From positions 62,001 to 126,000 of the forward strand of contig NZ_WIQU01000016.1 of assembly GCF_015732285.1 (NCBI RefSeq): a stretch of DNA of 64,000 nucleotides, read 5' to 3'. The translations under genes and the position numbers were made by a program. Positions within the stretch are counted from its first letter, which is position 1. Each line of letters starts with the position of its first letter. The notes below the pieces were generated by a model, which made no database searches, had not been told where the DNA came from, and saw only the letters and a program-made list of their open reading frames with translations. Source of the DNA: Pectinatus frisingensis (GTDB taxonomy: Bacteria > Bacillota > Negativicutes > Selenomonadales > Selenomonadaceae). This document shows positions 33,936 through 64,000 of this stretch, in pieces.

Positions 33936-34008
33936 TTTATTGTCTGCTAGAGTAAACTGATAAAAAAATTACATATAAGAGTACTGCAAATCGGTTGATT
34001 AGAAAACT

Positions 34009-34062: not shown

Positions 34063-34079
34063 ATAGGAGGAATAGATAA

Positions 34080-35456: not shown

Positions 35457-35470
35457 GGAATGAAACGTAT

Positions 35471-36286: not shown

Positions 36287-36297
36287 AGGAGAGAAAA

Positions 36298-37332: not shown

Positions 37333-37353
37333 ACAGCAAGCAGGGATTACAAT

Positions 37354-38163: not shown

Positions 38164-38357
38164 TAGTTTACATTTCATCACTAAAATCTATGATAATCGC
38201 AATTGTACTGCCAAATATATATTACTATGTATTACATTTATTTTTATTTGTATTGGCTGCCTGAAACCCCCAAAACCCTGTGCTATTTATATTTATGTGT
38301 AGATAATATAATGCTTTTTATTTTTTTAAAACTACTATTTATATAGGAGAAACCATT

Positions 38358-39359: not shown

Positions 39360-39375
39360 ATGTGAGGTAATCCAC

Positions 39376-40152
39376 GTGAAAGAGGTTGCTACTAATCATT
39401 ATGGGAAAATAATTAAATATTGGAGCTTATATTGGATATTTCCAATTTTAATCCTATTTGTATGGAAAGGTACAACCATATTAGGAATAATCCATAATTA
39501 TACGCTGCCGGCACCGGATAAAGTGATACAAACAGCAGTAGTACTGACTACTAATGGCACATTAGCCGGGAATATAATCATCAGTATATTACGAGTACTA
39601 GAGGGCTTTATAATAGCGTTGGCCGCTGCCCTGACTATTGGAATAGCAGCAGGATTGTCAGTAAAATTTGAAATAATTACTGATTTTGTTTTGCAGGTAT
39701 TAAAGCCTATACCGCCGATAGCATGGATTCCGCTGGCAATTTTGTGGTTTGGTATCGGAGAAGCATCTAAGATATATATAATTTTTATCGGTGCTTTTTT
39801 CCCGATTTTTTTAAACACACTAGATGGTATAAAAAATATTGATAAAAAATATATAGAATTGGCCCGTGTTTATGAGGTCCCCCAAAAAAGAGTAATCAAA
39901 CATATTATACTGCCAGGTGCATTGCCATTTATAATGACCGGTACCAGGCTGGGACTTGGCAGCGCATGGATCTGCGTAGTAGCTTCTGAAATGATTGCAG
40001 CTACAAGTGGTGTTGGCTATATGCTCATGGATGGGCGTGATTTATCCAGACCTGATATGGTTATTCTGGGAATGCTGATAATAGGAATTGTTGGTAAATT
40101 CATGGATGATATATTAAAGAAACTATCAAATCGGATGATAAAATGGAATTGA
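39376..40152 (+). CDS. ABC transporter 2 permease, sulfonate type
   Basis: 258 aa from a GTG at 39376 with GAGGT upstream. Six hydrophobic segments, the LKPIPPIAWIPLAILWFGIGEASK loop and the EAA-like GTRLGLGSAWICVVASEMIAAT segment place it in the SsuC family. It pairs with the binding protein before it and the ATPase after it. Confidence 0.9.
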   Translation: MKEVATNHYGKIIKYWSLYWIFPILILFVWKGTTILGIIHNYTLPAPDKVIQTAVVLTTNGTLAGNIIISILRVLEGFIIALAAALTIGIAAGLSVKFEIITDFVLQVLKPIPPIAWIPLAILWFGIGEASKIYIIFIGAFFPIFLNTLDGIKNIDKKYIELARVYEVPQKRVIKHIILPGALPFIMTGTRLGLGSAWICVVASEMIAATSGVGYMLMDGRDLSRPDMVILGMLIIGIVGKFMDDILKKLSNRMIKWN

Positions 40153-40163
40153 GTGGATAATGT

Positions 40164-40934
40164 ATGACTGAGCCAATTATTAAAATCGAAAATTTGAATA
40201 AAACTTTTGTTTCTAACAATCAGGAAAAACCTGTTCTGAAGAATATTGATTTGGCTATAACAGTAGGAGAATTTATATCGATAATTGGTCCAAGCGGTTG
40301 TGGTAAAAGCACTTTACTGCGGATTATCGGTGGTCTGGATACTGAATTTAAAGGAACAGTGCAATTTGAGAATAAACCAATTACAGGTCCGGGACGCGAA
40401 CGTGGATTTATTTTTCAGGATCATCGATTGCTGCCATGGCTGACTGTAGAAGAAAACATAAAATTCAGTTTACCGGAATCAGCGGAAAATGTTGATGATA
40501 TAGTTTCTAAAAATTTGGAGATAGTCGGGCTTCATGATGTCAAAAAAAATTATCCGCGGCAGCTTTCAGGTGGAATGGCACAGCGTGTAGCAATTGCGCG
40601 GGCATTATCGAATCAACCCAAATTACTCTTGCTTGATGAACCTTTTGGGGCATTAGATGCAATAACTAAAATACATTTACAGGAAGAAATGCTGCGATTA
40701 TGGGAATTAGAACATATAACAATGATTATTGTGACACATGATATTGACGAAGCCGTTTATTTAGGTCAGCGGGTCATTGTTATGAACACGCATCCCGGCA
40801 GTATCAAGCATATTTATAATGTTGAACAATCTGTGCCTCGCAGCCGCACCAGTCCAGATTTTCACTGCCAAAGAGATAAAATATACCAAGAATTTTTTGA
40901 AGAGAAATCGCAAACATTTTTTTATAATATATAA
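40164..40934 (+). CDS. ABC transporter 2 ATPase, sulfonate type
   Basis: 256 aa. Walker A GPSGCGKST, Q-loop FQDHRLLPWL, signature QLSGGMAQR, Walker B LLLDEPFGALD, H-loop VTHDIDEAV. It is an SsuB-type ATPase. It ends 31 bp before the isethionate lyase gene, so import and cleavage are probably co-transcribed. Confidence 0.92.
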   Translation: MTEPIIKIENLNKTFVSNNQEKPVLKNIDLAITVGEFISIIGPSGCGKSTLLRIIGGLDTEFKGTVQFENKPITGPGRERGFIFQDHRLLPWLTVEENIKFSLPESAENVDDIVSKNLEIVGLHDVKKNYPRQLSGGMAQRVAIARALSNQPKLLLLDEPFGALDAITKIHLQEEMLRLWELEHITMIIVTHDIDEAVYLGQRVIVMNTHPGSIKHIYNVEQSVPRSRTSPDFHCQRDKIYQEFFEEKSQTFFYNI

Positions 40935-40965
40935 ATTTATGCTGAAAATGCAAACGGAGGTTAAT

Positions 40966-43452
40966 ATGTCTAAAGAAAAAGTCCTTTCTGCACAGGAAAA
41001 ACGTATCCTGTTTGAAATTAATGGAGAAAAAAATACTTTATATAACAAAAAAAACAGAGCCTTTGATTTATTGAAACATGTGCAAGGGGAAAAACCCGTC
41101 ATTGATATTGAACGTGGTTTATATTTTACTCGTTCGTTTAAAACCACAGAAGGTCAGCCGCTTATTCTGCGCTGGGCAAAAGCTCTCAAGTATTATGCCG
41201 AACATGCTAAAGTATACATTGACGATAATCAGCTGATAATAGGAAGAATAGGCCGACCTGGCCGTTATGGTATATTATATCCTGAGCTTGACGGTGATAT
41301 TCTTGGCGATGCCATAAAACAATTGCCCGAACGGGAAACATCACCTTTTAACATTGATCCTAATGATGCTAAGATTATAAGCGAAGAAATTGCACCGTAT
41401 TGGAAAGGAAAAACATTTCATGAAGACCTAATAAAAGCACTTACACCAAAAACGGCAGCTCTAACTTATAACCAGGATAAAGATTTTACCTCTCGCTTTA
41501 TCGTTAATGAAACAGCGTCTTTTCGTTCCTCAATACAATGGGTCCATGACTACAAGATCGTTTTGCAAAAAGGGTTTTCCGGCATACGCAGGGAAATGGA
41601 AAAAAAGCTAAATGAACTTGATGAATTCAGTCCTGTCGATCAAACTGAAAAAAAACCTTTTATAGATGCAGTTATTACTGTATGCGACGCAATTGTTCTA
41701 TGGGCTCACCGCCATGCCAAGCTGGCTGGGCAGCTGGCTGCTAAGGAATATAATACTGTACGCAAGGCTGAATTGGAAAAAATAGCCAAAATCTGTTGGC
41801 AGGTACCGGAATATCCTGCGAGAAATTTTCGTGAGGCAGTCCAGTCCCAATGGTTTACACAGATGTTTTCCCGGGTAGAACAAAAAACAGGCACCGTTAT
41901 TTCCAACGGACGCATGGATCAGTATCTATATCCTTTTTATAAGAATGATATAGAAAAAAGCCTGATCACTGATGATGATGTTCAGGAAATATTTGACTGC
42001 ATGTGGGTTGCTATGTCTCAATATATAGACCTTTATATATCAAGTGCCGGAGGCGCCTTTAATGAAGGCTATGCCCATTGGGAAGCCGTTACTGTCGGTG
42101 GACAGACTTCAGATGGAAATGATGCTGTCAACGATCTGACATATATTCTGCTGAAATCAAAACGTGAATTTCCACTGAATTATCCGGATTTAGCAGCACG
42201 TATCCATACACGCAGTTCACAGCGATATTTGGCAGAAGTCGCAGAAACCATAAAAGAAGGTTCCGGTTTTCCAAAACTTATTAATGATGAAGAAGTTATA
42301 CCGCTGCTGCTTTCCAAAGGCGCTGATTTTGAAGATGCATATGATTATAGTGTATCCGGATGTGCCGAATGCCGTATGCCTAATCGCGATACTTACACCA
42401 GCCCGAATGCTTATATAAATTTTGCAGCAGCTTTGGAAATGACAATTTATAACGGTCATATGCTAAAATATGGTGATGAACTTATAGGCTTAAAAACAGG
42501 AGACGCTGAAACATTTACTGACTTTGATGAATTTTTTGCAGCATATTTAAGGCAGCAGAAAAATTTTCTTAAGCATGCTTTTATTCAGCAGCATGAAATC
42601 ATCAGATTACGCGCTAAGCATTTTGCCAGTCCATTAGGATCGGCACTTCATAAATTATGTCGTGACACACTTACTGATCTTCATCAGCCGCATATTAAAG
42701 GCGGCATAGATCTCGGTTACTTCGAATTTATTGGATATGCAACTGTAATAGATTCACTGGCAGCAATAAAAAAAATAGTCTTTGAAGAAAAAAAAGCAAC
42801 ATTAAATCAGGTAAAAAAAGCAATGCAGCACAATTTTACCGGATATGAACTGCTGCGGCAACGTCTCGTAAATGCACCTAAATATGGTAACAATGATCAT
42901 TATGCCGATGAAATAGGTCGTACTCTTGACCGTGAAGCATTATTATTTACTAGGCAATATTCGAAAGAATTGGGTATAAATCTTGATTTACGTTATGTTC
43001 CTTTTACATCACACGTACCATTTGGCAAGGTAGTCAGTGCTACACCGAACGGAAGATTAGCTTGGACACCATTATCAGATGGCTCCAGTGCATCTCAAGG
43101 TGCAGACTTATATGGACCAACTGCAGTATTACTATCAAACTTTGCCACTAAAAATTACCAATATCACGAACGCGCAGCACGGTTGCTCAATGTTAAATTA
43201 AGTCCTGCCTGCGTACAAGGGGAAAGCGGTACACAAAAACTTGTTCAATTTATTGAAGCATGGCGTGACTTGAAATTATGGCATATACAGTTTAATGTAA
43301 TAAATCAGGATACATTAATCGCTGCACAAAGGAACCCGGAAAATTACCGAAATCTACTCGTGCGTATTGCCGGGTATAGTGCATACTTTACTGAGCTGTC
43401 AGTTGATTTACAGAACGATATTATTGCGCGTACGCAGAATGAAGCCATTTAG
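40966..43452 (+). CDS. islA: Isethionate sulfite-lyase (glycyl radical enzyme)
   Basis: 828 aa from the ATG at 40966, preceded by GGAGG; longer starts would run back into the ATPase gene. A complete PFL-like glycyl radical enzyme: the thiyl cysteine C466 and base E468 in SGCAEC, and the radical glycine G803 in RIAGYSAYF. Recalled substrate residues of Bilophila IslA (R189, Q193, C468, E470, R678, F682) all reappear here with a constant offset of two: R187, Q191, C466, E468, R676, F680. It would split isethionate into acetaldehyde and sulfite in the cytosol. Activated by the next gene product. Extremely oxygen-sensitive when active. Confidence 0.9.
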   Translation: MSKEKVLSAQEKRILFEINGEKNTLYNKKNRAFDLLKHVQGEKPVIDIERGLYFTRSFKTTEGQPLILRWAKALKYYAEHAKVYIDDNQLIIGRIGRPGRYGILYPELDGDILGDAIKQLPERETSPFNIDPNDAKIISEEIAPYWKGKTFHEDLIKALTPKTAALTYNQDKDFTSRFIVNETASFRSSIQWVHDYKIVLQKGFSGIRREMEKKLNELDEFSPVDQTEKKPFIDAVITVCDAIVLWAHRHAKLAGQLAAKEYNTVRKAELEKIAKICWQVPEYPARNFREAVQSQWFTQMFSRVEQKTGTVISNGRMDQYLYPFYKNDIEKSLITDDDVQEIFDCMWVAMSQYIDLYISSAGGAFNEGYAHWEAVTVGGQTSDGNDAVNDLTYILLKSKREFPLNYPDLAARIHTRSSQRYLAEVAETIKEGSGFPKLINDEEVIPLLLSKGADFEDAYDYSVSGCAECRMPNRDTYTSPNAYINFAAALEMTIYNGHMLKYGDELIGLKTGDAETFTDFDEFFAAYLRQQKNFLKHAFIQQHEIIRLRAKHFASPLGSALHKLCRDTLTDLHQPHIKGGIDLGYFEFIGYATVIDSLAAIKKIVFEEKKATLNQVKKAMQHNFTGYELLRQRLVNAPKYGNNDHYADEIGRTLDREALLFTRQYSKELGINLDLRYVPFTSHVPFGKVVSATPNGRLAWTPLSDGSSASQGADLYGPTAVLLSNFATKNYQYHERAARLLNVKLSPACVQGESGTQKLVQFIEAWRDLKLWHIQFNVINQDTLIAAQRNPENYRNLLVRIAGYSAYFTELSVDLQNDIIARTQNEAI

Positions 43453-43455
43453 CTT

Positions 43456-44298
43456 ATGGGAAAAAAAGGATTGGTTTTTAATATACAGCATTATTCATTG
43501 CATGATGGACCTGGAATACGGACAATTATTTTTTTTAAAGGATGCCCGCTTCGCTGCCGCTGGTGCTGCAACCCGGAATCACAAAATCACTATCCTGAAA
43601 TTTCTTATGATGAAAAACGCTGTCTTGGCAATGAAATATGCTCTGAATGCCAAAAAGTATGCGAGAATAATGCAATTATGTTTTCTTCTGAAGGCAAAGC
43701 CATTATTCAAAGAGACAAATGCAGTAACTGCATGAAATGCATAGCTGAATGTCCGGCCAAAGCTTACAAAAAAGAGGGTATAGAGTATACTGCAGACGAA
43801 CTCCTTGATATTGTCGAACAGGACAGTATTTTTTACCGCGGTGGTAATGGCGGATTGACGGTCAGTGGCGGTGAACCATTAATACATGGTCAATTCCTGA
43901 TTGATTTACTTAAAGCAGCCAAAAAATTACGTCTGTCAACTGCAATGGAAACCTGCGGTTATGCAGATTATTCCATATTAAAACAGACTGCTGAATATTT
44001 AGATACAATCCTGTTCGATATAAAATCGCTGGATAATTTCAAGCATATTATTTATACAGGTAAATCAAATCAAGTAATATTAAATAATTTTGAAAGTCTC
44101 TGTAATGATTTCCCACATCTGCATAAGCACGTCAGGACACCTGTAATTCCAGGGTTTAACAATTCTATAGAAGATTTGCAGAAAATTGAGGACTATTTAA
44201 AAGATAAACCGGCAGTGACTTATGAAAAACTTTCATATCATCGCTTCGGCGTTGGCAAATACAAAACCTTAGGACGTAAATATCCAATGGACGATTGA
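43456..44298 (+). CDS. islB: Isethionate lyase activating enzyme (radical SAM)
   Basis: 280 aa. The radical SAM cluster motif is C30-x3-C34-x2-C37 (GCPLRCRWC). It is followed by a ferredoxin-like insert with two further cysteine sets (CSECQKVC, and CSNCMKCIAECP), as in glycyl radical enzyme activases, then SGGEPL and the METCGYAD strand. It abstracts hydrogen from G803 of the lyase. It starts three bases after the lyase stop without its own ribosome site, so it is translationally coupled. The protein ends at KYPMDD, some 20 residues earlier than most relatives. Confidence 0.9.
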   Translation: MGKKGLVFNIQHYSLHDGPGIRTIIFFKGCPLRCRWCCNPESQNHYPEISYDEKRCLGNEICSECQKVCENNAIMFSSEGKAIIQRDKCSNCMKCIAECPAKAYKKEGIEYTADELLDIVEQDSIFYRGGNGGLTVSGGEPLIHGQFLIDLLKAAKKLRLSTAMETCGYADYSILKQTAEYLDTILFDIKSLDNFKHIIYTGKSNQVILNNFESLCNDFPHLHKHVRTPVIPGFNNSIEDLQKIEDYLKDKPAVTYEKLSYHRFGVGKYKTLGRKYPMDD

Positions 44299-51198: not shown

Positions 51199-51549
51199 AT
51201 GAGCTATAAAATTGCAACAGCGTCTTCTAATGGACAACAAGTAGATAGACATTTTGGACATGCTGGTACATTTTATATTACAGAAGTTTTAGATGATGGC
51301 ACATATTTCTTTCTGGAAAAGCGGATAGTAGAATCGCCATGCCGGCATGGTAAACATGATTCAAGGATTATGCAAAAAGTCATAGAGAAAATTGCTGACT
51401 GCAAATATGTTTTGTGTGAAGCTGTTGGGAGCGGTGCAGCAGCAATATTAGCTCAAAAGCATATAACTCCACTGGAAACGGATAATATGATCAATAAAGC
51501 CATAGGCTGCATTATCTTATATGATAAGCGTTTACAACATTTATTATAA
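51199..51549 (+). CDS. NifX/NifB-C-terminal-like cofactor-binding protein
   Basis: 116 aa, the dinitrogenase iron-molybdenum cofactor-binding domain alone. It shows IATASSNGQQVDRHFGHAG at the start, the HFGHA signature, and a CKYVLCEAVGSGAA strand-turn near the middle. In many NifB proteins this domain is fused to the C-terminus; here it is separate and precedes a NifB without it. It probably carries or shields a cluster precursor. AAAGGAGG precedes the ATG. Confidence 0.85.
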   Translation: MSYKIATASSNGQQVDRHFGHAGTFYITEVLDDGTYFFLEKRIVESPCRHGKHDSRIMQKVIEKIADCKYVLCEAVGSGAAAILAQKHITPLETDNMINKAIGCIILYDKRLQHLL

Positions 51550-51564
51550 TACACCGAGGGAGAA

Positions 51565-52446
51565 ATGGAAATGAAAAAGGTGACCAAAATGAATGTCTTA
51601 CGGGAACAGCATCCGTGTTTCGGTGCCAGAAATAATCGTGGCCGTATGCATTTGCCGGTATGTCCCGGATGCAATATTTTCTGCCGTTTCTGTGAACGCA
51701 GTATCAATACTGAAGAAAATAGGCCAGGAGTTGCCGCAAAGGTAATAACACCGAATGAGGCTTGTGAGTATGTAGAACGTGCCATAAGATTCTGCCCGGA
51801 TATTACAGTAGTTGGTATAGCAGGACCTGGTGATACACTTGCGTCAGACAATGCCATAAAAACATTTGAGCTTATAGGCAGGCAATTTCCCAAGCTTTTA
51901 AAATGCATGAGCACGAATGGACTGCTTCTTAAGGAAAGGCTGCCGGATATTTTACGAGTGGGAGTAGATACACTGACAGTAACAGTCAATGCTATTAATC
52001 CCAAGATCGAAGCTCAGCTGAATGATGGGATAGTTTATCATAAAGAAAAAATTATGGGTGAAGCCGGGGCCAGAATCCTCATAGGTAATCAGCTTGCTGG
52101 TATTAAAGCTGCCGCAGATGCAGGAATAACAATCAAAATAAATACTGTACTTGTAAATGAGATAAACAGGTTTCATATAAAGGATATAGCAAGGACAGCA
52201 GCAGAATGCGGTGCAGCAATTTATAATATCATACCGCTTATTCCACAGCATAAGCTTAAGGCTTTTTCTGTGCCAAGCTGTATCGACATAGAAACAGTCA
52301 GACGCGAAGCTGGTAAATATATAGATGTCTTTCGGCATTGTCAGCATTGCCGTGCTGATGCTGTAGGCATACCAGGAAAAAACAATTTCAGCCAGCAAGT
52401 TTATTTTGATAAAATTCCCGTTAAAGAAACATTTTCACATGGCTAA
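51565..52446 (+). CDS. nifB: NifB-like radical SAM cofactor-biosynthesis enzyme
   Basis: 293 aa, the SAM core only. It has the NifB-specific sequence around HPCFGARNNRGRMHLPVCPG, the radical SAM cysteines in PGCNIFCRFCERS, ENRPGV, GIAGPGDTLA, and the late CQHCRADAVG motif. NifB fuses two [4Fe-4S] clusters with carbide insertion to form the 8Fe core of nitrogenase cofactors. Its presence implies that the component I proteins downstream carry a complex cofactor, not only P-cluster-like sites. An ATG six bases further in (51571) has better ribosome-site spacing. Confidence 0.9.
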   Translation: MEMKKVTKMNVLREQHPCFGARNNRGRMHLPVCPGCNIFCRFCERSINTEENRPGVAAKVITPNEACEYVERAIRFCPDITVVGIAGPGDTLASDNAIKTFELIGRQFPKLLKCMSTNGLLLKERLPDILRVGVDTLTVTVNAINPKIEAQLNDGIVYHKEKIMGEAGARILIGNQLAGIKAAADAGITIKINTVLVNEINRFHIKDIARTAAECGAAIYNIIPLIPQHKLKAFSVPSCIDIETVRREAGKYIDVFRHCQHCRADAVGIPGKNNFSQQVYFDKIPVKETFSHG

Positions 52447-52466: not shown

Positions 52467-53330
<864 letters not shown>

Positions 53331-53550: not shown

Positions 53551-53618
53551 TATATATATTTTTGTACAGAGAATAAAGATGCGCTGTTTATTTGTCAATG
53601 GACGGGGAGAAATTTGCT

Positions 53619-54392
53619 ATGGAAGAATTTATAAGAAAAATTAATGATCATCTTATTGATGTATTAGGCATAATTATTTTTTTATTATTGTGGGAATTTT
53701 TACCAAGAGCAGGTATTATTGACGGACAATTCATTCCGCCTTTATCGAAAGTCATTGCGGCTGTTGTCAAGCTGTTTTTGGCAGAGCATTTGATGCTGCA
53801 TATTGCGGCTAGTCTGCAGCGAGTGTTTATTGGAGTGGTTTTGGCTATCGTTTTAGCAGTACCTATTGGGTTTTCTTTGGCGGCTTTTCCAAAAACAGCT
53901 GCTTACCTGCAGCCATTGTTAAAAATAGGTAGTCAAATCAATGCTTTCGCATTGTTTCCAATCTTCATTTTACTATTCGGTATAGGAGAAACGGCAAAAA
54001 TAAGTATTATTTTTTGTTCTGCTTTTTGGCCTGTATTGTTTACCACTGTGGCAGGAGTAAGACAAGTCGATCCACTCTATATAAAAAGTGCTAAATCAAT
54101 GGGAGCGGGACGATTGAGAATTTTTAAAGAAGTGATACTGCCGAGTACGACGCCGTTTATTTTTACAGGTATCCATAGTGGAACCACACACGCTTTTTTA
54201 ATGCTGATCGCAGCAGAAATGATCGGAGCAAAGGCTGGCTTGGGATGGATAATTCTTAATTCTACAGCAAACAGTTTAATGCCGCGTTTATTTGCCGGTG
54301 GTATTATAATTGCGTTTTTAGGAATGCTTCTAAGTTATTTTATTTATTGGTTGGAGGATATTATCGTATATTGGCGGGAAAAAGCTAATTAA
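53619..54392 (+). CDS. ABC transporter permease 1 of the nitrogenase-like cluster
   Basis: 257 aa from the ATG at 53619 (GGGGAG upstream). SsuC/NrtB-like permease with five to six membrane segments, the NAFALFPIFILLFGIGETAK loop and a GIHSGTTHAFLMLIAAEMIGAK EAA-region. It is clearly a sister of the next gene product (same AEMIGA-GLGW pattern), so the two probably form a heterodimeric channel. Confidence 0.9.
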   Translation: MEEFIRKINDHLIDVLGIIIFLLLWEFLPRAGIIDGQFIPPLSKVIAAVVKLFLAEHLMLHIAASLQRVFIGVVLAIVLAVPIGFSLAAFPKTAAYLQPLLKIGSQINAFALFPIFILLFGIGETAKISIIFCSAFWPVLFTTVAGVRQVDPLYIKSAKSMGAGRLRIFKEVILPSTTPFIFTGIHSGTTHAFLMLIAAEMIGAKAGLGWIILNSTANSLMPRLFAGGIIIAFLGMLLSYFIYWLEDIIVYWREKAN

Positions 54393-54429: not shown

Positions 54430-55263
54430 ATGCAAACTATAGTAAAAGGACTTTCAATTCCAAAAGTTTCCCCGGTGAAGGTTAAGGCTTTTGGTATAGA
54501 ACTGAAAAAATTTGTGGTTTCTAATATTTCTATTATAGCATTTTTTGTTTTTTGGGAAATTTTAGTAGATACCGGAATCGTTAAAGATACATTTGTAGCT
54601 TCTCCATCAACAATAATAATTACTATTTTAAAATTGTTAGAAAGCAATACGCTTTTAGAGCATGCCGGTATCAGTTTATTCCGTGCTGTAGCTGGGTTTA
54701 TTCTTGCTGCCGTGATTGCAATTCCATTAGGGTTTTTTTTAAGCGGACCATATACCATATTCCGGCGTATCGTTACACCGGTTATGCGGCTGATGAATGC
54801 TGCTAATCCATTTGCATTGCTACCAGTATTTATTTTATTGTTCGGAATTGGCGAGATATCGAAGGTGGCAATTATATTCTGGGTATGCTTATGGCCTATT
54901 TTATTGAATACTATTGCCGGTATACGAAATGTTGATCCTTTATTGGTAAAATCAGCCCGTTCAATGGGGATGCAGGGCCGGCCATTGTTTTTTAAAGTAA
55001 TTTTACCGGCAGCGGCGGCACCAATTTTTCATGGTCTTAAAATGAGCTGTGGAACGGCGTTTTTTATGCTGATCGCAGCGGAAATGATCGGTGCCAGTAC
55101 GGGATTAGGCTGGATGGTATGGAATGCACAGATAAATTATCAAATTCCTAAATTGTTTGCAGTTACTTTTATTATTTCGGTACTAGGGCTGTCCTTAAAT
55201 TATTTATTTGTCAGAATTGAAAAAAATGTTCTTTCTTGGCAGACGGATGACACCGAGTATTGA
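54430..55263 (+). CDS. ABC transporter permease 2 of the nitrogenase-like cluster
   Basis: 277 aa, homologous to the permease before it (NPFALLPVFILLFGIGEISK, and LMLIAAEMIGASTGLGWM). GGAGG precedes the ATG. Two permeases with one binding protein and one ATPase argue for a heteromeric importer of the nitrate/sulfonate/taurine family. It was probably formed by tandem duplication. Confidence 0.9.
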   Translation: MQTIVKGLSIPKVSPVKVKAFGIELKKFVVSNISIIAFFVFWEILVDTGIVKDTFVASPSTIIITILKLLESNTLLEHAGISLFRAVAGFILAAVIAIPLGFFLSGPYTIFRRIVTPVMRLMNAANPFALLPVFILLFGIGEISKVAIIFWVCLWPILLNTIAGIRNVDPLLVKSARSMGMQGRPLFFKVILPAAAAPIFHGLKMSCGTAFFMLIAAEMIGASTGLGWMVWNAQINYQIPKLFAVTFIISVLGLSLNYLFVRIEKNVLSWQTDDTEY

Positions 55264-55309
55264 TTTTTGAAATTGAAATATATTTACTTTACTGGTAAAT
55301 AGGAGTGTG

Positions 55310-56341
55310 ATGCTGGATATGAATAGAAACTTTAAAAAAATTTTGGCTGGTATAGTTGGGATAGCAATTATCGGTGCCGTAGTTTATGGAGCCAATCATA
55401 GTGATCAGGCTCAGGGAAATGGACAAACTGCTACGGCAGATGACGGATTGTTTCCGATAAGAACATGGTCTCAGACCGACTGTTCCTCAACACCTTGGAT
55501 CGTGGCTGATCAGAAAGGCTTTTTAGCGGAAGAGGGTCTCAAGGTGGTTTATACTGGCGATACTCAGCCAGCACAGCAAATTCCTTCAGTAATGAACGGC
55601 AACAATGATGTTGGAGGCGGTACACATCCAAATTCACTTGCAGTAGCTATTAATGGTGGTGCAACAATCAAGGCCGTCGTACCTGCAGGTATTGATCCTG
55701 GACCGGAAGTCGATCCTAAAATGCGTCATATGGTTTGGTATGTAAATCCAGACAGCGGTATAAAATCTTTTGCTGATTTAAATAACATTCAGGGTAAAAT
55801 TAAATTTTCCACTATATCGACTAATATCTGCGCAGATTTTTTAGCCAATAACATTGCTGACAAAAACAATGTTCCACGTGACAAAATTGAATGGGTAACG
55901 ATGCCTGACATTCAAGCCGTACAGGCAGTAAAACAGGGATTAGTCACTGTGGCGGGTGTGCATCCACCTTATTATAAATCTATGGAAGATGCCGGCATGA
56001 TAAAAATTGCTGACAGTTTTGATGCAGGTCTTGGACCAACAGCAGGGCTTTCTTATTATTTCTTTAATGATGACTTTATTAAACAGCATCCTGATATAGT
56101 TAAAAAATTTGCCAAGGCAATGGCTAAGGCTGAAACCTGGGCCAATGAAAATCCGGAAGAGGCACGGGTTCTGACAGAAAACTGGATACATGTTCCTGTT
56201 TCAGCGACGCATTACTATTATGGTGGGACTGATTTGAACCCACGCCTGGCTGATGTATGGATAAAAGATCTGGAGGATCATGGTGTTATTCCTGCAGGTA
56301 AGGTGAAATCTGAAGATTTGATGGCACTGGATATAAATTAA
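55310..56341 (+). CDS. Substrate-binding protein of the nitrogenase-like cluster transporter
   Basis: About 343 aa; several starts within 55307-55319 are possible, and a ribosome site AGGAGTG lies just before. An uncleaved or Sec signal helix (ILAGIVGIAIIGAVVYGA) has no lipobox cysteine. The mature part begins PIRTWSQTDCSSTPWIVADQKGF and has IQAVQAVKQGLVTVAGVHPP. It belongs to the NMT1/SsuA-like binding proteins but differs much from the two sulfonate-binding proteins at 36-39 kb. The ligand is unknown. The genetic link to component I genes makes the reductase substrate a good candidate. Confidence 0.85.
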   Translation: MLDMNRNFKKILAGIVGIAIIGAVVYGANHSDQAQGNGQTATADDGLFPIRTWSQTDCSSTPWIVADQKGFLAEEGLKVVYTGDTQPAQQIPSVMNGNNDVGGGTHPNSLAVAINGGATIKAVVPAGIDPGPEVDPKMRHMVWYVNPDSGIKSFADLNNIQGKIKFSTISTNICADFLANNIADKNNVPRDKIEWVTMPDIQAVQAVKQGLVTVAGVHPPYYKSMEDAGMIKIADSFDAGLGPTAGLSYYFFNDDFIKQHPDIVKKFAKAMAKAETWANENPEEARVLTENWIHVPVSATHYYYGGTDLNPRLADVWIKDLEDHGVIPAGKVKSEDLMALDIN

Positions 56342-56383: not shown

Positions 56384-57238
56384 ATGGCGAATTTTACTGA
56401 TAATGCTGTTCCTGCAAATGACGAAACAGATAAAATTATTGCTGTAAACATCAACAGAATATATAAGGTAAGAGAAAAGGACAGCAATGAATTAGTTGAA
56501 TTTCAAGCATTGAAAAATGTGAATATGACAATAAAAAAAGAGGAATTTCTAGTTATTGTGGGACCAAGTGGCTGCGGAAAGTCGACTTTTTTGGATATGG
56601 TTGCTGGGTTGGCACATCCGACATCAGGTGAAATCTATATGGATGGGAAGCTTATTACTGGTCCGGCGCTGGATCGCGGTATTGTTTTGCAAGGATATGC
56701 GTTGTTTCCATGGCGGACTATCAGGAAAAATGTGGAATTTGGTCTGGAAATAAAAAATATACCCAAGAAAGAACGTACAAAAATAGGTCAACAATTCATT
56801 GATCTTGTTAATTTGAATGGGTTTGAGGATCGCTATCCGCATGAATTGTCCGGCGGGATGAAGCAGCGCGTGGCAATTGCCAGAGCATTGGCATATGATC
56901 CTGAGGTGCTATTGATGGATGAACCTTTTGCAGCAGTTGATGCCCAGACCAGGGAAACTTTGCAGGAAGAATTGCTGCGTATATGGGAGAAGACAAAGAA
57001 GACTATTATTTTTGTTACACATAGTATTGATGAAGCAATTTTTTTAGCTGACAGAGTAGTAGTGCTGTCAACTAATCCTGGCACAGTCAGAGAAGTAATC
57101 AATATTGATCTGCCACGGCCTCGTGACGGTATTAGAGCATCAATTGAATTTGGCAGATTAAGGCAGCAAATATGGGAATTGCTGCAGAATGGACAGCAAA
57201 ATACGACAGGAAATAGTGTTGAAGATAAAGCGGTATGA
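56384..57238 (+). CDS. ABC transporter ATPase of the nitrogenase-like cluster
   Basis: 284 aa. Walker A GPSGCGKST, Q-loop LQGYALFPWR, signature ELSGGMKQR, Walker B VLLMDEPFAAVD, H-loop VTHSIDEAI. It is the sulfonate/nitrate-type ATPase. AGAAGGTGG precedes the ATG. It closes the transporter block and is followed 48 bp later by the component I genes in the same direction. Confidence 0.92.
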   Translation: MANFTDNAVPANDETDKIIAVNINRIYKVREKDSNELVEFQALKNVNMTIKKEEFLVIVGPSGCGKSTFLDMVAGLAHPTSGEIYMDGKLITGPALDRGIVLQGYALFPWRTIRKNVEFGLEIKNIPKKERTKIGQQFIDLVNLNGFEDRYPHELSGGMKQRVAIARALAYDPEVLLMDEPFAAVDAQTRETLQEELLRIWEKTKKTIIFVTHSIDEAIFLADRVVVLSTNPGTVREVINIDLPRPRDGIRASIEFGRLRQQIWELLQNGQQNTTGNSVEDKAV

Positions 57239-57286: not shown

Positions 57287-58759
57287 GTGAGTGTTTATCA
57301 GGATACAGATGAAGTTGAAATAAGAGAAAGAAGACTTGATTCTATTCTTTCTTATAAAGGTGATGCTAAAACCCTTGACATACAGTCAAAAAATAGGAAG
57401 ATAAATTGTCCAGGCAGTTACTATAATCAGTGCAGTCAATGTGCTGAAGGCTGCGCCGAAACAATAACCTATCATGTTATTGATGCGGCAGTGATCAGCC
57501 ATGCACCGATTGGCTGCAGTATAGGAGTATCGTCACGTCATATTTTAGGCCGTGCGGTTGCTAAAGATCGTGGATTGCCTGAACATAATGTGCATATGAT
57601 CAGCAGTAACATTGATGAGGAAGATACTGTTTACGGAGCTTCTAAAAAATTATTTGAGGCAATATATGAGGCTGATCACCGGTTCAAGCCAAAAACAATT
57701 TTTATTCAGGCTTCGTGTGCTTCTGGAATTATTGGGGAGGATATGGAAGGCATTGCGAAGGAGGCAGAAAATAAACTTCATTATCCGATTATTCCTGTGT
57801 ATTGTGAAGGCTTTAAATCAAACATATGGTCAACTGGTTTTGATGCAGCATATCATTCAATTTTGAGGAAATTAGTTAAACCGGCGAAAAAAAAACATCA
57901 GGATTTGGTCAATATATTTAATTTTGCAGGTTCAAACACATTTATTCCGTTTTTACATAAATTGAATTTAAAGGTAAATTATCTGATACCAATGGCAACA
58001 TTGAAACAAATTGAGACATTGACAGAAGCTGCATGCACAGCTCATATTTGTGAAACATTGGCTACATATATAGCCGCAGCGCTGGAGGAACAATATGGCG
58101 TACCTGAAGTTAAAGAACCAGCCCCATTTGGTATTGACTGGACAGACAACTGGATAAGGGAAATAGCAAAATATACTGATCGGTCGGAATTGGCAGAAGA
58201 AGTTATTGCAAAGGAACATATAAGGATACTGCCGGAATTGATAAAACTAAGAGGGCAGTTAAAAGGAAAAACAGTTTATGTATTATCAGGAGATGCTTTT
58301 GCCCATAATCTGGCTAATATTGCTAAAGATTTGGACCTGAAGATAATTGGATTGACAACATTGCACCATGATCTGCATTTTGAAACTGACCAGCAACCCG
58401 ATACACTGGGAGCACTTATTAAAAGCAATGGCAACATAAAAAATGTAACGATATGCAATAAGCAACCATATCGCATGATCAAGTTATTGCAGGATCTTAA
58501 GCCTGATATATTGATAGTGCGGCATCCTAATCTGGCGCCTATTGGAATGAAGCTAGGAATACCTACTTTAAGTGAGGGCGATGGTAATTACAGCATTGGT
58601 TATGATGGTGTATTAAAATTTGGCCGGCGGTTGTTGGAATTATTGGCAGCTAAAAAATTATTCAGCAATATTGCGGTACATGCTAAACTGCCCTACAGCA
58701 AATGGTGGAGAGAAAATGACATTAGCAATTTTGACATTAATGAGGGTAATGAATTATGA
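57287..58759 (+). CDS. NifD-like nitrogenase component I alpha subunit (D1)
   Basis: 490 aa from a GTG (AGGAG upstream). P-cluster-type ligands are C52 (CAEG), C77 (HAPIGC) and C144 (ASCASGIIGED), with NifD-like 25-residue spacing between the first two. C255 in HICETLATYIAAALEEQYGVP aligns with the FeMoco cysteine of NifD. The FeMoco histidine is not evident: the stretch before GYDGVLKFG reads LSEGDGNYSI. Extra N-terminal cysteines are C41, C49 and C56. The pattern fits the methylthio-alkane reductase side of the nitrogenase superfamily better than N2-fixing enzymes. Its stop overlaps the NifK-like start. Confidence 0.9.
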   Translation: MSVYQDTDEVEIRERRLDSILSYKGDAKTLDIQSKNRKINCPGSYYNQCSQCAEGCAETITYHVIDAAVISHAPIGCSIGVSSRHILGRAVAKDRGLPEHNVHMISSNIDEEDTVYGASKKLFEAIYEADHRFKPKTIFIQASCASGIIGEDMEGIAKEAENKLHYPIIPVYCEGFKSNIWSTGFDAAYHSILRKLVKPAKKKHQDLVNIFNFAGSNTFIPFLHKLNLKVNYLIPMATLKQIETLTEAACTAHICETLATYIAAALEEQYGVPEVKEPAPFGIDWTDNWIREIAKYTDRSELAEEVIAKEHIRILPELIKLRGQLKGKTVYVLSGDAFAHNLANIAKDLDLKIIGLTTLHHDLHFETDQQPDTLGALIKSNGNIKNVTICNKQPYRMIKLLQDLKPDILIVRHPNLAPIGMKLGIPTLSEGDGNYSIGYDGVLKFGRRLLELLAAKKLFSNIAVHAKLPYSKWWRENDISNFDINEGNEL

Positions 58760-60105
58760 GTACAATAATTGAACAGCCACGCCATGGCTGCGCTTTAAGC
58801 GCTCAGCAAACTGTATTGGCGATTCCTCGTGCGATGCCTATTGTCCATGCCGGACCAGGATGTGCTTCTAAATCATTTGGCTTTGCAGCTACTGGCGCTG
58901 GATTTCAAGGTGAAGGTTATGCTGGTGGATCCCATATATCATCTACGAATACGGGAGAACAAGAAGTTATTTTTGGCGGCGAATCTAGTTTGGATAAAGA
59001 AATAAAAGGGGCACTGCAAATTTTAGATGGTGACATGTTTGTTGTATTAACGGGATGCACATCTGATATTGTAGGTGATGATTCGCAATCTATAGCTGAA
59101 AAATATGCAGCTGAAGGATATCCGGTAGTGGGAACAGAAACAGCAGGATTCAAGGGAAATAGCTACTATGGACATGAAATAGTAATAAAAGCTATTATTG
59201 AACAATTTGTAGGAAAGGTAATACCAAAGGTGCGGCGCGGTTTAGTAAATGTGTTTGCGACAGTTCCTTTCCAAGATCCCTTTTGGCGGGGAGATTTGGA
59301 AGAAATCAAGCGCATTTTAACAAAAATAGGTCTCGAGGTAAATATTTTGTTCGGTAACGAATCTGCGGGAGTCAGTGAATGGCAGGATATCCCCAATGCG
59401 CAGTTCAATTTATTAGTATCCCCTTCCACTGGCACTGAGGTAGTAAAGCTTTTGGAAGAGAAATATCAGACACCATATCTGCAATATCCTATATTGCCAG
59501 TCGGTGGCGCTGAAACAAGCAGATTTTTGCGTGAGATATCGGTATTTGCTGGATTATCTGCTGTAAGAACTGAGAAGGTTATAAAAGAAGAAGAAAAGCG
59601 TTTTTATGATTACTTAGTTTCTGTATCAGATTTTATCGGCGAATATTGGAATAATCTACCAATTGATCTATATACTGTCGGTGACAGTATATATGCACCA
59701 GGTGTCAGTTCCTTTTTGGTAAATGAACTGGGGCTTGAACCTAAGGGCATTTATTTGACTGATGAACCAAAAGAAGATTGGCAGACAGTTATAACTGATG
59801 CTTTAGCTGAACGTGATACCAGATTAAAAACATCATTGGTTTTTGAGAATGACGGCGGAAGTGTTGAAGCTGATATACGGCAAAAGTCAGATAGAACCAG
59901 ACATTCAATTATTTTAGGCAGCTCTTGGGAAAAATTTCTTGCACTGGATATTGGTAGTCTTTATGCCTACCTCAGTTTGCCGCTTGATGAAACAGTTATT
60001 TTAAATAATTCCTATGTTGGTTATAATGGCGGACTACGCCTTATCGAAGAAGTATATTCGGCGGTATTTAAATGCAGGCCTGCAACAGCAAGATCAATTT
60101 ATTGA
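58756..60105 (+). CDS. NifK-like nitrogenase component I beta subunit
   Basis: 449 aa. It lacks the long N-terminal extension of NifK. The three P-cluster cysteines are there: C12 (RHGCALSAQQT), C36 (HAGPGC) and C101 (TGCTSDIVGDD). The rest follows the component I fold, including the LVSPSTGTEV, PILPVGGAETSRFL and GYNGGLRLIEE segments. It overlaps the D1 stop by 4 bp, so D1 and K form a coupled heterodimer. All six P-cluster-type ligands of the pair are thus kept. Confidence 0.9.
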   Translation: MSTIIEQPRHGCALSAQQTVLAIPRAMPIVHAGPGCASKSFGFAATGAGFQGEGYAGGSHISSTNTGEQEVIFGGESSLDKEIKGALQILDGDMFVVLTGCTSDIVGDDSQSIAEKYAAEGYPVVGTETAGFKGNSYYGHEIVIKAIIEQFVGKVIPKVRRGLVNVFATVPFQDPFWRGDLEEIKRILTKIGLEVNILFGNESAGVSEWQDIPNAQFNLLVSPSTGTEVVKLLEEKYQTPYLQYPILPVGGAETSRFLREISVFAGLSAVRTEKVIKEEEKRFYDYLVSVSDFIGEYWNNLPIDLYTVGDSIYAPGVSSFLVNELGLEPKGIYLTDEPKEDWQTVITDALAERDTRLKTSLVFENDGGSVEADIRQKSDRTRHSIILGSSWEKFLALDIGSLYAYLSLPLDETVILNNSYVGYNGGLRLIEEVYSAVFKCRPATARSIY

Positions 60106-60182
60106 TACTGCTTGAAACAAAAGGCATATTATGCTTCACTGATAAAATTCAAATAAAAATTTTTTTAGAAAGGAAGATTTAT

Positions 60183-61346
60183 ATGACAAAAGATCGAATG
60201 TGCGGGATCAATACAGTATTAATACATGGAGGCATAGATGGTGATAAGCAGACGGGAGCAGTAAATGTGCCGATTTATCAGACTTCTACCTACAAACAAA
60301 TACACTTGGGAAAAACTACCGGGTATGAATATTCACGTACAGGTAATCCGACAAGAGAAGCATTGGAAAAGCTTATCGCGCAGCTGGAAAATGGTAAATA
60401 CGGATTGGCATTTGCCTCTGGTATGGCAGCTATAGCCGCTGCGTTTACGCTGTTCTCAACAGGTGATAAAATTTTGATTTCGAGAAATGTCTATGGGGGG
60501 ACTTTTCGTATTCTAGATAAAATTTTTTGTCATTTCGGTATAACATACGAAATCATTGATACCGGAAATATTGCAGAAATAGAAACAAATATAACTGAAA
60601 ATGTTAAAGCAATTTTGATAGAAACACCGACTAACCCTTTAATGGAAGTAACGGATATAGCCGCTGTAACTAAGATAGCTAAGAAGTACAATGTGCTGAC
60701 GATCGTAGATAACACCTTTATGTCACCATATCTGCAGAGACCATTAACACTGGGAGCAGATATAGTACTGCATAGTGCTACGAAATATTTGGGAGGTCAT
60801 AGTGATCTTATCGCTGGAATAGTAGTGGTAAATGATGAAGAGTTGGCACAAAAATTATATTTTATCCAAAATTCTACAGGGGGAATTTTATCACCCAATG
60901 ATTCGTTTTTGCTCATAAGAGGTATAAAGACACTGGGCGTGAGGATAGAACGTCATCAGGAAAATGCAGGAAAGCTTGCCAAATGGCTGCAAACACAAGA
61001 CTGGGTAACAAAAGTGTACTATCCTGGACTGCCGGATCATCCCGGATATAAGACTCAGCTTGAACAGGCTGATGGTGCAGGCGGCATGCTTTCCTTTGAA
61101 ATAAAAGAAGGATATAACTATGAAGCATTTTTAGATAATTTAAAAATAATAACACTTGCAGAAAGCCTTGGTGGAGTTGAATCACTTATTTGCCAGCCGT
61201 CATCAATGACACACGCAGCTATACCGCCGGAAATACGAAAGCGTATTGGCATCACAGATAAATTGCTTCGCTTGTCGGTTGGTATTGAAAATTATGATGA
61301 TCTGGCTGCAGATATAGAACAGGCAGCTAAGAAAGCGGGGGAATAG
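60183..61346 (+). CDS. Cystathionine gamma-lyase/beta-lyase-type PLP enzyme (MccB-like)
   Basis: 387 aa from the ATG at 60183 (AAGGAAG upstream). Typical Cys/Met PLP enzyme with NTVLIHGGIDGDKQTGAVNV, YEYSRTGNPTR, the FASGMAA turn, YGGTFR, ETPTNPLMEVTDI and the PLP lysine in SATKYLGGHSDLIAG. Paired with the MccA-like gene it fits the reverse transsulfuration pair mccA-mccB, where cystathionine is split to cysteine. Homocysteine gamma-lyase or cystathionine beta-lyase activity is also possible. It follows the NifK-like gene by 77 bp. Confidence 0.85.
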   Translation: MTKDRMCGINTVLIHGGIDGDKQTGAVNVPIYQTSTYKQIHLGKTTGYEYSRTGNPTREALEKLIAQLENGKYGLAFASGMAAIAAAFTLFSTGDKILISRNVYGGTFRILDKIFCHFGITYEIIDTGNIAEIETNITENVKAILIETPTNPLMEVTDIAAVTKIAKKYNVLTIVDNTFMSPYLQRPLTLGADIVLHSATKYLGGHSDLIAGIVVVNDEELAQKLYFIQNSTGGILSPNDSFLLIRGIKTLGVRIERHQENAGKLAKWLQTQDWVTKVYYPGLPDHPGYKTQLEQADGAGGMLSFEIKEGYNYEAFLDNLKIITLAESLGGVESLICQPSSMTHAAIPPEIRKRIGITDKLLRLSVGIENYDDLAADIEQAAKKAGE

Positions 61347-61348
61347 TG

Positions 61349-62260
61349 ATGAAATACTATAATGGAATTCATTCATTGATAGGAAAAACACCGCTTCTTA
61401 AGCTGAATAATATAGGTCTGCCTCCCAATATCAACGTTTTTGCCAAGCTGGAGTTTTATAATCCAGGCGGCAGTGTAAAGGATCGTATCGGAGTGTTTAT
61501 GCTGAACGCTATGGAAAAAAGAGGAGATATAAAACCCGGAGCTACGATCATAGAAGCAACAGCAGGAAACACCGGTATTGGGATAGCGCTTGCAGCATTA
61601 AATAAAGGATATAAGGTCATATTTGTAGTGCCTGAAAAGTTTTCTGTCGAAAAACAATGCCTGATGAGAGCACTTGGGGCAGAGATCATAAATACGCCGC
61701 GTGAAGGTGGAATGCTTGGAGCAAAAGAAACAGCATTTGAAATAAAATCAACTATATCAAATGCCGTTTCCTTTAATCAATTTGATAATCTGGATAATAC
61801 GCGGACTCATTATGAAACGACCGGTGTAGAAATTTATAATGATTTGGACGGGGAAATAGATTATTTTGTAGCTGGTGCCGGCAGCGGAGGCACATATACA
61901 GGGTCTGCACGTTATTTAAAAGAGAAGAAACCTGAGATAAAAGGAATACTGGCAGATCCTATTGGGTCGACACTTGGCGGCGGTGAACACAGTGATTATG
62001 ACATTGAAGGAATAGGAAATGATTTTGTACCGGCAACAATGGATTTAAAGCTTGTTGACAAGGTTATCAAAATTTCTGATCAGGAAGCTTTGGACGGAGT
62101 GCAGCTACTGGCCAAACATGAAGGTATATTTGTAGGGACATCATCAGGGGCAGCGTTGTCAGCTGTATTGAAGTTAACTAAACAAATCGATAAAGGCAAT
62201 ATTGCAGTTATATTTCCTGACCGTGGTGATCGTTACTTCAGCAAAAAGATATACGGATAG
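61349..62260 (+). CDS. Cysteine synthase/cystathionine beta-synthase-type PLP enzyme (MccA-like)
   Basis: 303 aa, starting at the ATG directly after a GTG. Fold-type II: PLP lysine in NPGGSVKDRI, the EATAGNTGIGIA loop, AGAGSGGTYTG and GTSSGAALSA. The EATAGNTG form (rather than EPTSGNTG) points to MccA/CBS-like enzymes that condense O-acetylserine or serine with homocysteine. It almost touches the MccB-like gene, so the two act together to move sulphur from homocysteine to cysteine. It ends next to a small unknown gene. Confidence 0.87.
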   Translation: MKYYNGIHSLIGKTPLLKLNNIGLPPNINVFAKLEFYNPGGSVKDRIGVFMLNAMEKRGDIKPGATIIEATAGNTGIGIALAALNKGYKVIFVVPEKFSVEKQCLMRALGAEIINTPREGGMLGAKETAFEIKSTISNAVSFNQFDNLDNTRTHYETTGVEIYNDLDGEIDYFVAGAGSGGTYTGSARYLKEKKPEIKGILADPIGSTLGGGEHSDYDIEGIGNDFVPATMDLKLVDKVIKISDQEALDGVQLLAKHEGIFVGTSSGAALSAVLKLTKQIDKGNIAVIFPDRGDRYFSKKIYG

Positions 62261-62625: not shown

Positions 62626-64000
62626 ATGAAAGAAAAAATTAATCTTGACATGCCGGAAGTGCAGCCTCGTGAACAGCGCTTAGGCACAATCATTGCTTGG
62701 GATGGCGATATAGATGAACTGCATCGTCAATCGGATTTTATTGGCAGGGCAGGCTGTGACAGAAATGCTGCCTGCAAGTTATGTGAGTTGCGGGGACCAT
62801 TTTCGCAGGGATCAGTATGCAGTGAGCAGATGGTCGAATGCCAGGCAGGTAATGTTCGTGATGCTGTTTTGATCCAGCATGCACCGATAGGCTGCGGTGC
62901 CGGACAAGTACCATACAATTCCATTTATCGCAATGGACTTGCGATGCGCGGACATAAAGTAGAAAACATCCGGATAATAAATACCAATCTTAGTGAGGAC
63001 GATGTAGTTTTCGGTGCTGCTGATAAACTGCGCATGGCAATTGATGATGCATGGACACGTTATAAGCCTAAAGCCATATTTATCGCTACATCCTGTGCTA
63101 CTGGCATCATTGGTGAAGATGTAGACAGTATTGCCAGAGAAAAACAGGAAGAGCTGAATATTCCGGTAATACCGATGGCTTGTGAGGGATTTCGTTCAAA
63201 GCATTGGAGTACAGGCTTTGATGCTACACAGCATGGCATTTTGCGTCAAATAGTCAATAACCATCCACATAAACAGGAAGATTTAGTTAATGTCATAAAT
63301 CTTTGGGGTTCTGATGTATTTACACCAATGTTGGCCAATCTGAATCTAAGAGTGAACTACGTGATTGATTTAGCTTCTGTTGATGATCTGGCAAGAATGT
63401 CTGAAGCTGCAGCAACGGTCGGATTTTGTTATACTTTATCGTCATATTTGGCTGCGGCTCTTGAAGAACATTTTGGTGTTCCTGAAGTTAAGGCACCTAT
63501 GCCATACGGATTTGCCGGGACGGATGCATGGCTGAGAGAATTGGCGCGGATTACTCACAGAGAAGAACTGGCCGAAAAATATATCAAAGCGGAACACGCC
63601 AGGGTCCACCCGCGTATTGCAGAATTAAAGAAAAAATTAAAGGGCGTAAAAGGATATGTGGCTACGGGTTCAGCATATTCACATGGACTCATTCAAGTAC
63701 TGAGAGAATTGGAAGTAAAAGTAAATGGCTCACTGGTTTTTCATCATGACCCTGTTTATGACAGCGGAGATGAACAGGAAGATTCATTAGGACATTTATT
63801 AAAACATTACGGTAATGTAGAAAATTTTCACGTCAGCAATCGTCAACAGTATCAATTGTACGCTTTTCTGCAAAAAGTGCATCCGGATTTTATGCTGATC
63901 CGCCACAATGGACTGGCACCTTTAGCGTCAAGGCTCGGTATACCGGCAGCTCCATTAGGTGATGAACATATAGCTATTGGTTATCAAGGTATTATCAATT
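62626..64000 (+). CDS. Second NifD-like nitrogenase component I subunit (D2), 3' end outside window
   Basis: 458 codons visible, ATG at 62626 with AGGAGG upstream, and no stop before the edge. Ligand cysteines in NifD-like spacing: C65 (SVCSEQ), C90 (HAPIGC) and C157 (TSCATGIIGED), plus C268 (GFCYTLSSYLAAALEEHFGVP) at the FeMoco-cysteine position. An extra cluster C44-x5-C50-x2-C53 lies before them. Near the edge it reads GDEHIAIGYQG, with a histidine absent from D1. It is clearly a paralogue of D1 (WSTGFDA, GTDAWLRELA) but far diverged. A second K subunit presumably follows outside the window. Confidence 0.9.
   Translation, partial: MKEKINLDMPEVQPREQRLGTIIAWDGDIDELHRQSDFIGRAGCDRNAACKLCELRGPFSQGSVCSEQMVECQAGNVRDAVLIQHAPIGCGAGQVPYNSIYRNGLAMRGHKVENIRIINTNLSEDDVVFGAADKLRMAIDDAWTRYKPKAIFIATSCATGIIGEDVDSIAREKQEELNIPVIPMACEGFRSKHWSTGFDATQHGILRQIVNNHPHKQEDLVNVINLWGSDVFTPMLANLNLRVNYVIDLASVDDLARMSEAAATVGFCYTLSSYLAAALEEHFGVPEVKAPMPYGFAGTDAWLRELARITHREELAEKYIKAEHARVHPRIAELKKKLKGVKGYVATGSAYSHGLIQVLRELEVKVNGSLVFHHDPVYDSGDEQEDSLGHLLKHYGNVENFHVSNRQQYQLYAFLQKVHPDFMLIRHNGLAPLASRLGIPAAPLGDEHIAIGYQGIIN

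Follow-up and report, generated by a model that had tools for sequence, protein, structure and literature searches.

The D1-K1 gene pair

This report concerns a pair of nitrogenase-like genes, D1 and K1, in a 64,000-nucleotide stretch of Pectinatus frisingensis DNA (contig NZ_WIQU01000016.1, positions 62,001 to 126,000; hereafter the window, in whose own numbering positions are given). The reference system is methylthio-alkane reductase (Mar), for which North et al. 2020 is reportedly the discovery paper. Published systems are described from excerpts of three papers (PMC12552129, PMC11423573 and PMC9147875). Both reading frames of the pair are present, overlap by 4 bases, and carry the following features:

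57287-58759, + strand: D1, predicted catalytic alpha subunit, 490 amino acids, GTG start; C52, C77 and C144 (P-cluster), C255 and H413 (cofactor), R412
58049..58051, + strand: codon of D1 Cys255, Fe1 ligand by homology with MarD Cys270
58520..58525, + strand: codons of D1 Arg412-His413, loop-I pair by homology with MarD Arg428-His429
58756-60105, + strand: K1, predicted beta subunit, 449 amino acids; C12, C36 and C101 (P-cluster)

Predicted cluster ligands of D1-K1

A preliminary description of the pair had assigned the six cysteines listed above to the P-cluster and equated C255 with NifD Cys275, and the alignment with MarD that it proposed bears out both assignments. In a MAFFT alignment, D1 C52, C77 and C144 coincide with MarD C66, C91 and C158, K1 C12, C36 and C101 with MarK C32, C56 and C121, and C255 with both MarD C270 and C260 of the NifD encoded by the same genome. 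In PDB 9FMG, according to the excerpts of PMC12552129, the matching MarDK residues coordinate the clusters. The correspondence is not a chance one, since the four D1 cysteines are invariant in all 26 sequences of the D1 clade (delimited below) and the three K1 cysteines in 21/21 of their K partners. In a separate 32-sequence alignment, C52, C77, C144, C255, R412 and H413 are likewise all invariant.

The stretch of D1 at the place of the NifD cofactor histidine, GIPTLSEGDGNYSIGYDG (reading GDGNYSIGYDG), lacks histidine, as the preliminary description had noted; its N434 is Asn in 25 of the 26 clade members. The further claim, that the cofactor is bound without its histidine, is not supported. 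Both a HMMER alignment and MAFFT set D1 ILIVRHPNLAP opposite MarD FIIIRHNGLAP, so that R412-H413 lies on R428-H429, and H413, 21 residues ahead of N434, falls on the MarD cofactor histidine; both residues are invariant in 26/26 D1-clade sequences. In the MarD structure, His429, coming from another loop, binds Fe8 of the [Fe8S9C] cluster, and Arg428 is proposed as a hallmark beside loop-I His429 and Cys270 (PMC12552129, excerpts). Because R412-H413 align with this pair throughout the clade, the histidine ligand is not absent from D1 but would be supplied by the loop used in Mar, and from that different loop His413 very probably takes up the cofactor ligand position, as happens in MarD. The preliminary description would have counted as a refutation a histidine that came from another loop and acted as in N2-fixing enzymes; half of this applies, since there is a histidine on another loop, but the manner is that of Mar.

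In the wide sense (the loop-I Arg-His type), D1-K1 has the sequence features of a methylthio-alkane reductase: six P-cluster cysteines, equivalents of Cys270, His429 and Arg428, and MarB and MarH genes in its operon. The hallmark arginine varies elsewhere in the sample: two standard-clade MarDs from Clostridium (loci L108 and L110) have Lys in place of Arg428. A deeper group of nine Ds, 26-30% identical to D1 (L047 4717-6225, L048 15526-17031, L053 7903-9411 and six others), has the loop-I histidine without the arginine (e.g. VGHVNTN) and may include the group IV-A type.

Predicted structure of D1

The preliminary description had also proposed a structure prediction of D1-K with placed clusters; the D1 chain was modelled singly with AlphaFold2 from 32 sequences. 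The model has a mean predicted local distance difference test score (pLDDT) of 87.4 and a predicted template-modelling score (pTM) of 0.88, with weak parts at residues 43-50 and 481-490. Its top Foldseek match is the MarD chain 9fmg_A (E 2.7e-50, template-modelling score 0.90), and VIA-align superposes the two at 1.6 Å over 465 residues with a Z of 48.5, followed by 9d9u_A (Z 40.0). NifEN chains are the next structural relatives after MarD, and NifEN, nitrogenases and DPOR all score a Z of about 32 or lower (nitrogenases about 31, DPOR chains about 29-30). In the model, C255 and R412-H413 each come after a beta strand (residues 248-253 and 408-411, respectively), as the aligned MarD residues would. 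The model shows D1 with the MarD fold. Since the ligands, R412-H413 and the modelled fold all match MarDK, the pair most likely carries a P-cluster together with an [Fe8S9C] cluster that is bound in the MarDK manner.

Phylogeny and distribution of the D1 branch

Sequences were collected by a class-wide search of 380 genomes and a scan of named genomes (77 loci), and 118 D sequences were placed in a tree with FastTree under the LG model. D1 guided this sampling, so the tree and clade counts are not a census. D1 lies inside a clade of 26 (support 1.0) that is sister (0.959) to a clade of 24 (support 1.0). The latter contains R. rubrum MarD and the window's own D2, the standard MarD of the same operon, with D1 outside it. 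D3, the third D gene of the operon, falls in a clade of 34 (support 0.998). The K partners of the D1 clade form one clade (21/21, support 0.955); the K set for the D3 clade is mixed, one P. cerevisiiphilus K from the standard MarK clade having been assigned to D3 by the neighbour-pairing rule. D1 is 42% identical to R. rubrum MarD and about 24% identical to its own genome's NifD. By sequence, D1 is not a standard MarD but a member of a sister branch.

Six of the 380 genomes in the class search, this one included, hold a D1 relative at 54% identity or more, and the next matches are at 45%. Among the named genomes, clade members come from Pectinatus, Massilibacillus, termite Treponema, Lachnospiraceae and Eubacterium uniforme. 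Four Paenibacillus genomes examined for Nfa-type enzymes have none of the D1 type; their Mar-like Ds are 44-45, 41, 35-37 and 28-29% identical to D1. Some genomes of the class hold many Mar-like DK pairs (26-36 first-look candidates in G072, G073, G074, G295 and G304), and such pairs adjoin UroD-type methyltransferases or BadF-type activators at loci L059, L061 and L062.

Standard MarD finds no match above 47%, the level of D1 itself, in 17 of 20 genomes of the D1 clade, which suggests that the branch does not depend on a standard MarD. The remaining three are two Pectinatus with a standard MarD at 89-90% and one Lachnospiraceae metagenome-assembled genome (MAG) with matches at 53-59%. The same count bears on whether D1-K1 might act like NifEN, as a scaffold on which the cluster of D2-K2 or D3-K3 is matured. 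The top NCBIfam match of D1 is indeed nifE (172.5 bits, cut-off 505.1), though D2 also matches nifE first (155.1), and NifEN chains are the structural relatives nearest to D1 after MarD. Such a role is nonetheless very improbable, given the genomes that have no standard MarD match above 47%, the invariant loop-I Arg-His as in catalytic MarD, and the production of R. rubrum MarDK with MarB and no scaffold pair (PMC12552129, excerpts).

Altered pocket residues beside conserved cluster ligands

Trp195, Phe199 and His375 of MarD are retained in 26/26 sequences of the D1 clade, corresponding to W181, F185 and H360 in D1. By contrast, MarD Cys73, Gln74 and His194, all present in 24/24 standard MarDs, are T59, I60 and I180 in D1. 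Across the clade, Cys73 is never found (Thr 14, Gly 5, Ser 3, Asn 2, gap 2), Gln74 occurs once in 26, and the His194 position never holds His (Ile 19, Met 3, Val 2, Leu 1, Thr 1); nor does His194 occur in any of the 91 other Mar-type Ds of the tree. Trp195, His194 and His375 lie 3.9-4.7 Å from the S2B site and are described as possible substrate-binding and proton-transfer residues in the excerpts of PMC12552129. Because Cys73 and His194 are replaced throughout, and Gln74 in all but one, while the ligands are kept in 26/26, the D1 clade is one in which, at the level of sequence, the proposed reaction site is altered and the cluster ligands are retained. An extra cysteine (D1 C49) stands three residues ahead of the P-cluster ligand C52 in 24/26 D1-clade and 34/34 D3-clade sequences, at a position that is Gly in 24/24 standard MarDs.

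The pocket also bears on nitrogen fixation, which has been proposed for group IV-A (Nfa) enzymes: 15N2 is reported to be taken up by E. proavitum, which has Nfa-type genes alone (PMC9147875, excerpts). That D1-K1 fixes nitrogen is nevertheless extremely unlikely. The equivalents of NifD Gln191 and His195 are W181 and F185, there is no loop-II histidine, the gene context is one of sulfur and not nitrogen, and the genome already encodes nifHDKEN-B and an anfHDGK-type set, both apart from this operon, as is a further HDK-like set. The preliminary view, in which a NifB-type cofactor sits in a pocket that differs from the one in the N2 fixers, is supported. The further HDK-like set (L012 2597-6003) adjoins a TonB-type receptor and a FecCD-type permease.

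Tandem D1-type genes followed by a single K1 occur in P. haikarae (L064 9001-13409) and at locus L082 (8977-11955). The P. haikarae copies are 82% and 76% identical to D1, and the second copy has Gly-Leu for Thr-Ile at the pocket; the arrangement looks like substrate diversification through a swap of the D subunit.

The operon and its surroundings

D1-K1 lies within a same-strand run of genes, the remaining members of which are as follows:

51199..51549, + strand: small NifX/NifB C-terminal-like protein with a Nitro_FeMo-Co domain (Pfam PF02579, 63.1 bits, cut-off 26.3)
51565..52446, + strand: MarB / NifB-like radical SAM protein (Radical_SAM; TIGR01290 nifB 229.5 bits, under the cut-off of 343.65)
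52473..53330, + strand: MarH / NifH-like Fe protein (TIGR01287 nifH 459.9 bits, above the cut-off of 394.35)
53592..54392, + strand: ATP-binding cassette (ABC) importer permease 1 (BPD_transp_1, 77.4 bits)
54430..55263, + strand: ABC importer permease 2, SsuC/TauC-like, under the equivalog cut-offs
55307..56341, + strand: substrate-binding protein, NMT1/THI5-like (PF09084, 69.2 bits; SsuA family score 68.9, under the cut-off of 163.5)
56384..57238, + strand: ABC importer ATPase (ABC_tran, 111.7 bits), its stop 48 bases ahead of D1
60072..61346, + strand: Cys/Met pyridoxal phosphate (PLP) enzyme, cystathionine gamma-lyase / homocysteine desulfhydrase-like (PF01053; NF005810 561.8 bits, cut-off 594); this is the longest frame, and the real start is probably more internal
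61346..62260, + strand: cysteine-synthase-type PLP enzyme (PF00291; TIGR01136 329.9 bits, cut-off 344.15)
62626..64000, + strand: start of D2, standard MarD, 69.8% identical to R. rubrum MarD, extending beyond the window end

MarB retains the HPC, CxxxCxxC and HCxxCRADA stretches of the same genome's NifB, which we take to be the NifB cluster ligands, and from its sequence it would make the cluster core. Past the window end the run goes on with D2, K2, D3, K3 and another PLP enzyme (L009). The latter is split into two frames in the draft (L009 18387-19709) and is a single 469-residue frame in P. cerevisiiphilus (L043 3143-4552).

A sulfonate cluster (33201-44298) lies some 7 kb upstream of the operon. 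It encodes a glycyl radical enzyme of the sulfopropanediol HpsG type (NF048011, 1495 bits, cut-off 1000) and its activase, as well as a class III aminotransferase and binding proteins of the taurine/SsuA type. Counts from a promoter scan of the operon were modestly above those expected from shuffling (87 vs 66.8 +/- 8.4) and those from a terminator scan near expectation (11 vs 13.3); neither was used. At gathering scores, Rfam gave no sulfur riboswitch in the window or in loci L044, L045 and L048, the sole match there being a weak group II intron domain (RF02001, window 18522-18618, 32.4 bits, gathering 32) away from the operon.

Importer coupling

The gene neighbouring each D(-K) gene was taken as the first other gene upstream on the same strand. 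Such a gene exists for 23 of 25 D1-clade entries, giving 21 distinct genes, and by Pfam 19 of these 21 are importer components (16 ABC permeases, 2 ABC ATPases and 1 NMT1 binding protein). In the standard MarD clade, where 21 of 22 entries have an upstream gene, 2/21 are importer components, both binding proteins; no BPD_transp_1 or ABC_tran was seen among these genes under a stricter cut showing all 22 matched families, and the commonest neighbour is an Fe protein (7/21). The contrast of 19/21 with 2/21 gives a Fisher p of 1.7e-7, computed over related rows. An importer anywhere within four genes is found for 20/25 of the D1 clade and 5/22 of standard MarDs, a count that favours D1 because the seeds came partly from D1 loci. 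The binding proteins near D1-type genes are mostly NMT1/SsuA-like, with family 3 (amino-acid type) in 2/7 scanned. PDB searches with two binding proteins returned marginal matches only, to THI5 at 1e-4 and to a putative exported protein at 2e-6, which gave no clue to the ligand.

This coupling, absent from standard MarD, bears on whether D1-K1 is no more than another methylthio-alkane reductase, whose volatile substrates, such as dimethyl sulfide and 2-methylthioethanol, overlap with those of the standard one. The shared fold and cluster ligands, the retention of W181, F185 and H360, and an operon shared with a standard MarDK are what one would expect of such an enzyme. We judge it rather unlikely, however: the operon already has a standard MarDK, D1 belongs to a separate clade, and Cys73 and His194 are missing in 26/26 and Gln74 in 25/26 of that clade.

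A different task suggested by the importer is the reduction of a sulfonate with release of sulfite, akin to that of isethionate reductase but on the Mar cluster scaffold. The gene set IsrBHDK plus SsuCAB is proven for isethionate (PMC11423573, excerpts), D1 adjoins an NMT1/SsuA-like importer, the genome has two sulfite-reductase-family genes, and the window itself holds the sulfonate-type glycyl radical enzyme and taurine/sulfonate-type transporters. Against this, the D1 ligands are not those of IsrD, the binding protein scores under the sulfonate cut-offs, the operon has thiol-using PLP enzymes and no sulfite reductase, and other D1-clade members have amino-acid-type importers. On balance, a role specifically as a sulfonate reductase is unlikely, if worth keeping in view.

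Proposed function of D1-K1

The reading we favour, and hold to be probable by a modest measure, is that D1-K1 forms the catalytic component of a nitrogenase-like C-S reductase, driven by ATP and of the methylthio-alkane-reductase type, that acts on an imported organosulfur solute. By homology, the shared MarH of the operon would pass electrons to the P-cluster between D1 and K1 and from there to the [Fe8S9C] cluster, whose assembly would fall to the operon's MarB and whose protein ligands would be C255 and H413; neither homocitrate nor Mo should be required. Since other residues stand in the places of Cys73-Gln74 and His194 and an ABC importer accompanies the gene, the D1 branch may cleave the C-S bond of an organosulfur solute delivered by that importer, possibly a sulfonate or a non-volatile S-alkyl compound. 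The freed sulfur might then pass to methionine and cysteine via the PLP enzymes, as the gene context suggests. D2-K2, the standard MarDK, and D3-K3 would share this MarB and MarH and act on other sulfur compounds. Sulfur assimilation as the only purpose is unsupported, as the genome has PAPS_reduct and sulfite-reductase-family genes.

Several points weigh against this reading. The neighbour counts come from related and not independent rows, MAG incompleteness weakens the count of 17/20, and the confidence of the D1 model is low at residues 43-50. The window's binding protein falls under both the SsuA and the taurine cut-offs and has only marginal PDB matches, and some D1-clade members have an amino-acid-type binding protein instead. 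No biochemical data were found for D1-clade proteins.

We regard the D1 branch as a new offshoot next to an enzyme already known, not as an enzyme of a new kind; no importer-coupled branch and no His194 split are described in the excerpts of PMC12552129, PMC11423573 and PMC9147875. More tentatively, and short of calling it probable, we propose that the branch is a separate functional class of [Fe8S9C] reductase for imported non-volatile organosulfur (e.g. sulfonates and S-alkyl amino acids) in Pectinatus, termite-gut Treponema and rumen Firmicutes. The operon would be modular, with one NifB-like and one Fe protein feeding three catalytic pairs with different pockets, and the Mar-type scaffold would be a general C-S reductase platform rather than one enzyme. 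If these same clusters do sit in an altered pocket in the D1 branch, nature supplies several pockets for a single cluster, and the matched importers give hints of the substrates; how the protein rather than the cluster sets the reaction would become directly testable, and an anaerobic organic-sulfur route in guts and beer spoilage would be indicated.

Comparison with known systems

Mar is the only described non-nitrogenase with both large nitrogenase clusters, according to the excerpts of PMC12552129. D1-K1 shares with R. rubrum MarBHDK (group IV-C; PDB 9FMG, 9D9U) the six P-cluster cysteines, the cofactor cysteine, the loop-I Arg-His, the fold, the equivalents of Trp195, Phe199 and His375, and NifB-like and NifH-like operon partners. 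It differs in its 42% identity at the D subunit, the replaced Cys73, Gln74 and His194, the extra C49, an Asn for the usual loop-II His, and the ABC importer directly upstream.

For the combination of BHDK with an Ssu-type importer, isethionate reductase is the closest functional precedent: mutants and transfer to R. sphaeroides show that both are needed (PMC11423573, excerpts). Rhodobacter capsulatus IsrBHDK resembles the present operon in its radical SAM, H, D and K proteins, its Ssu-type importer and an organosulfur task, which for D1 is presumed. IsrD is reported there with one of the three P-cluster cysteines and no Cys275; D1, with all three and with C255, therefore does not count as an IsrD. 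IsrB is reported as unrelated to NifB beyond the radical SAM motif, whereas MarB is NifB-like.

The Mo, V and Fe nitrogenases share with D1 the P-cluster cysteines, the cofactor cysteine and the fold (Z about 31), but D1 lacks their loop-II cofactor histidine (NifD His442) and the Gln191/His195 equivalents. The cofactor-free DPOR, COR and CfbD are without the full P-cluster set and the cofactor cysteine, both of which D1 has; the evidence therefore supports setting D1-K1 apart from the chlorophyll and F430 enzymes, as the preliminary description had done, and from the isethionate enzymes as well. Finally, the occurrence of several group-IV DK pairs per genome, as here, is described for NflDK2-4 of Heliophilum fasciatum and for group IV-A NfaDK, and in heliobacteria, with their multiple DK copies, the roles of NflDK2-4 are reported as unknown (PMC9147875, excerpts).

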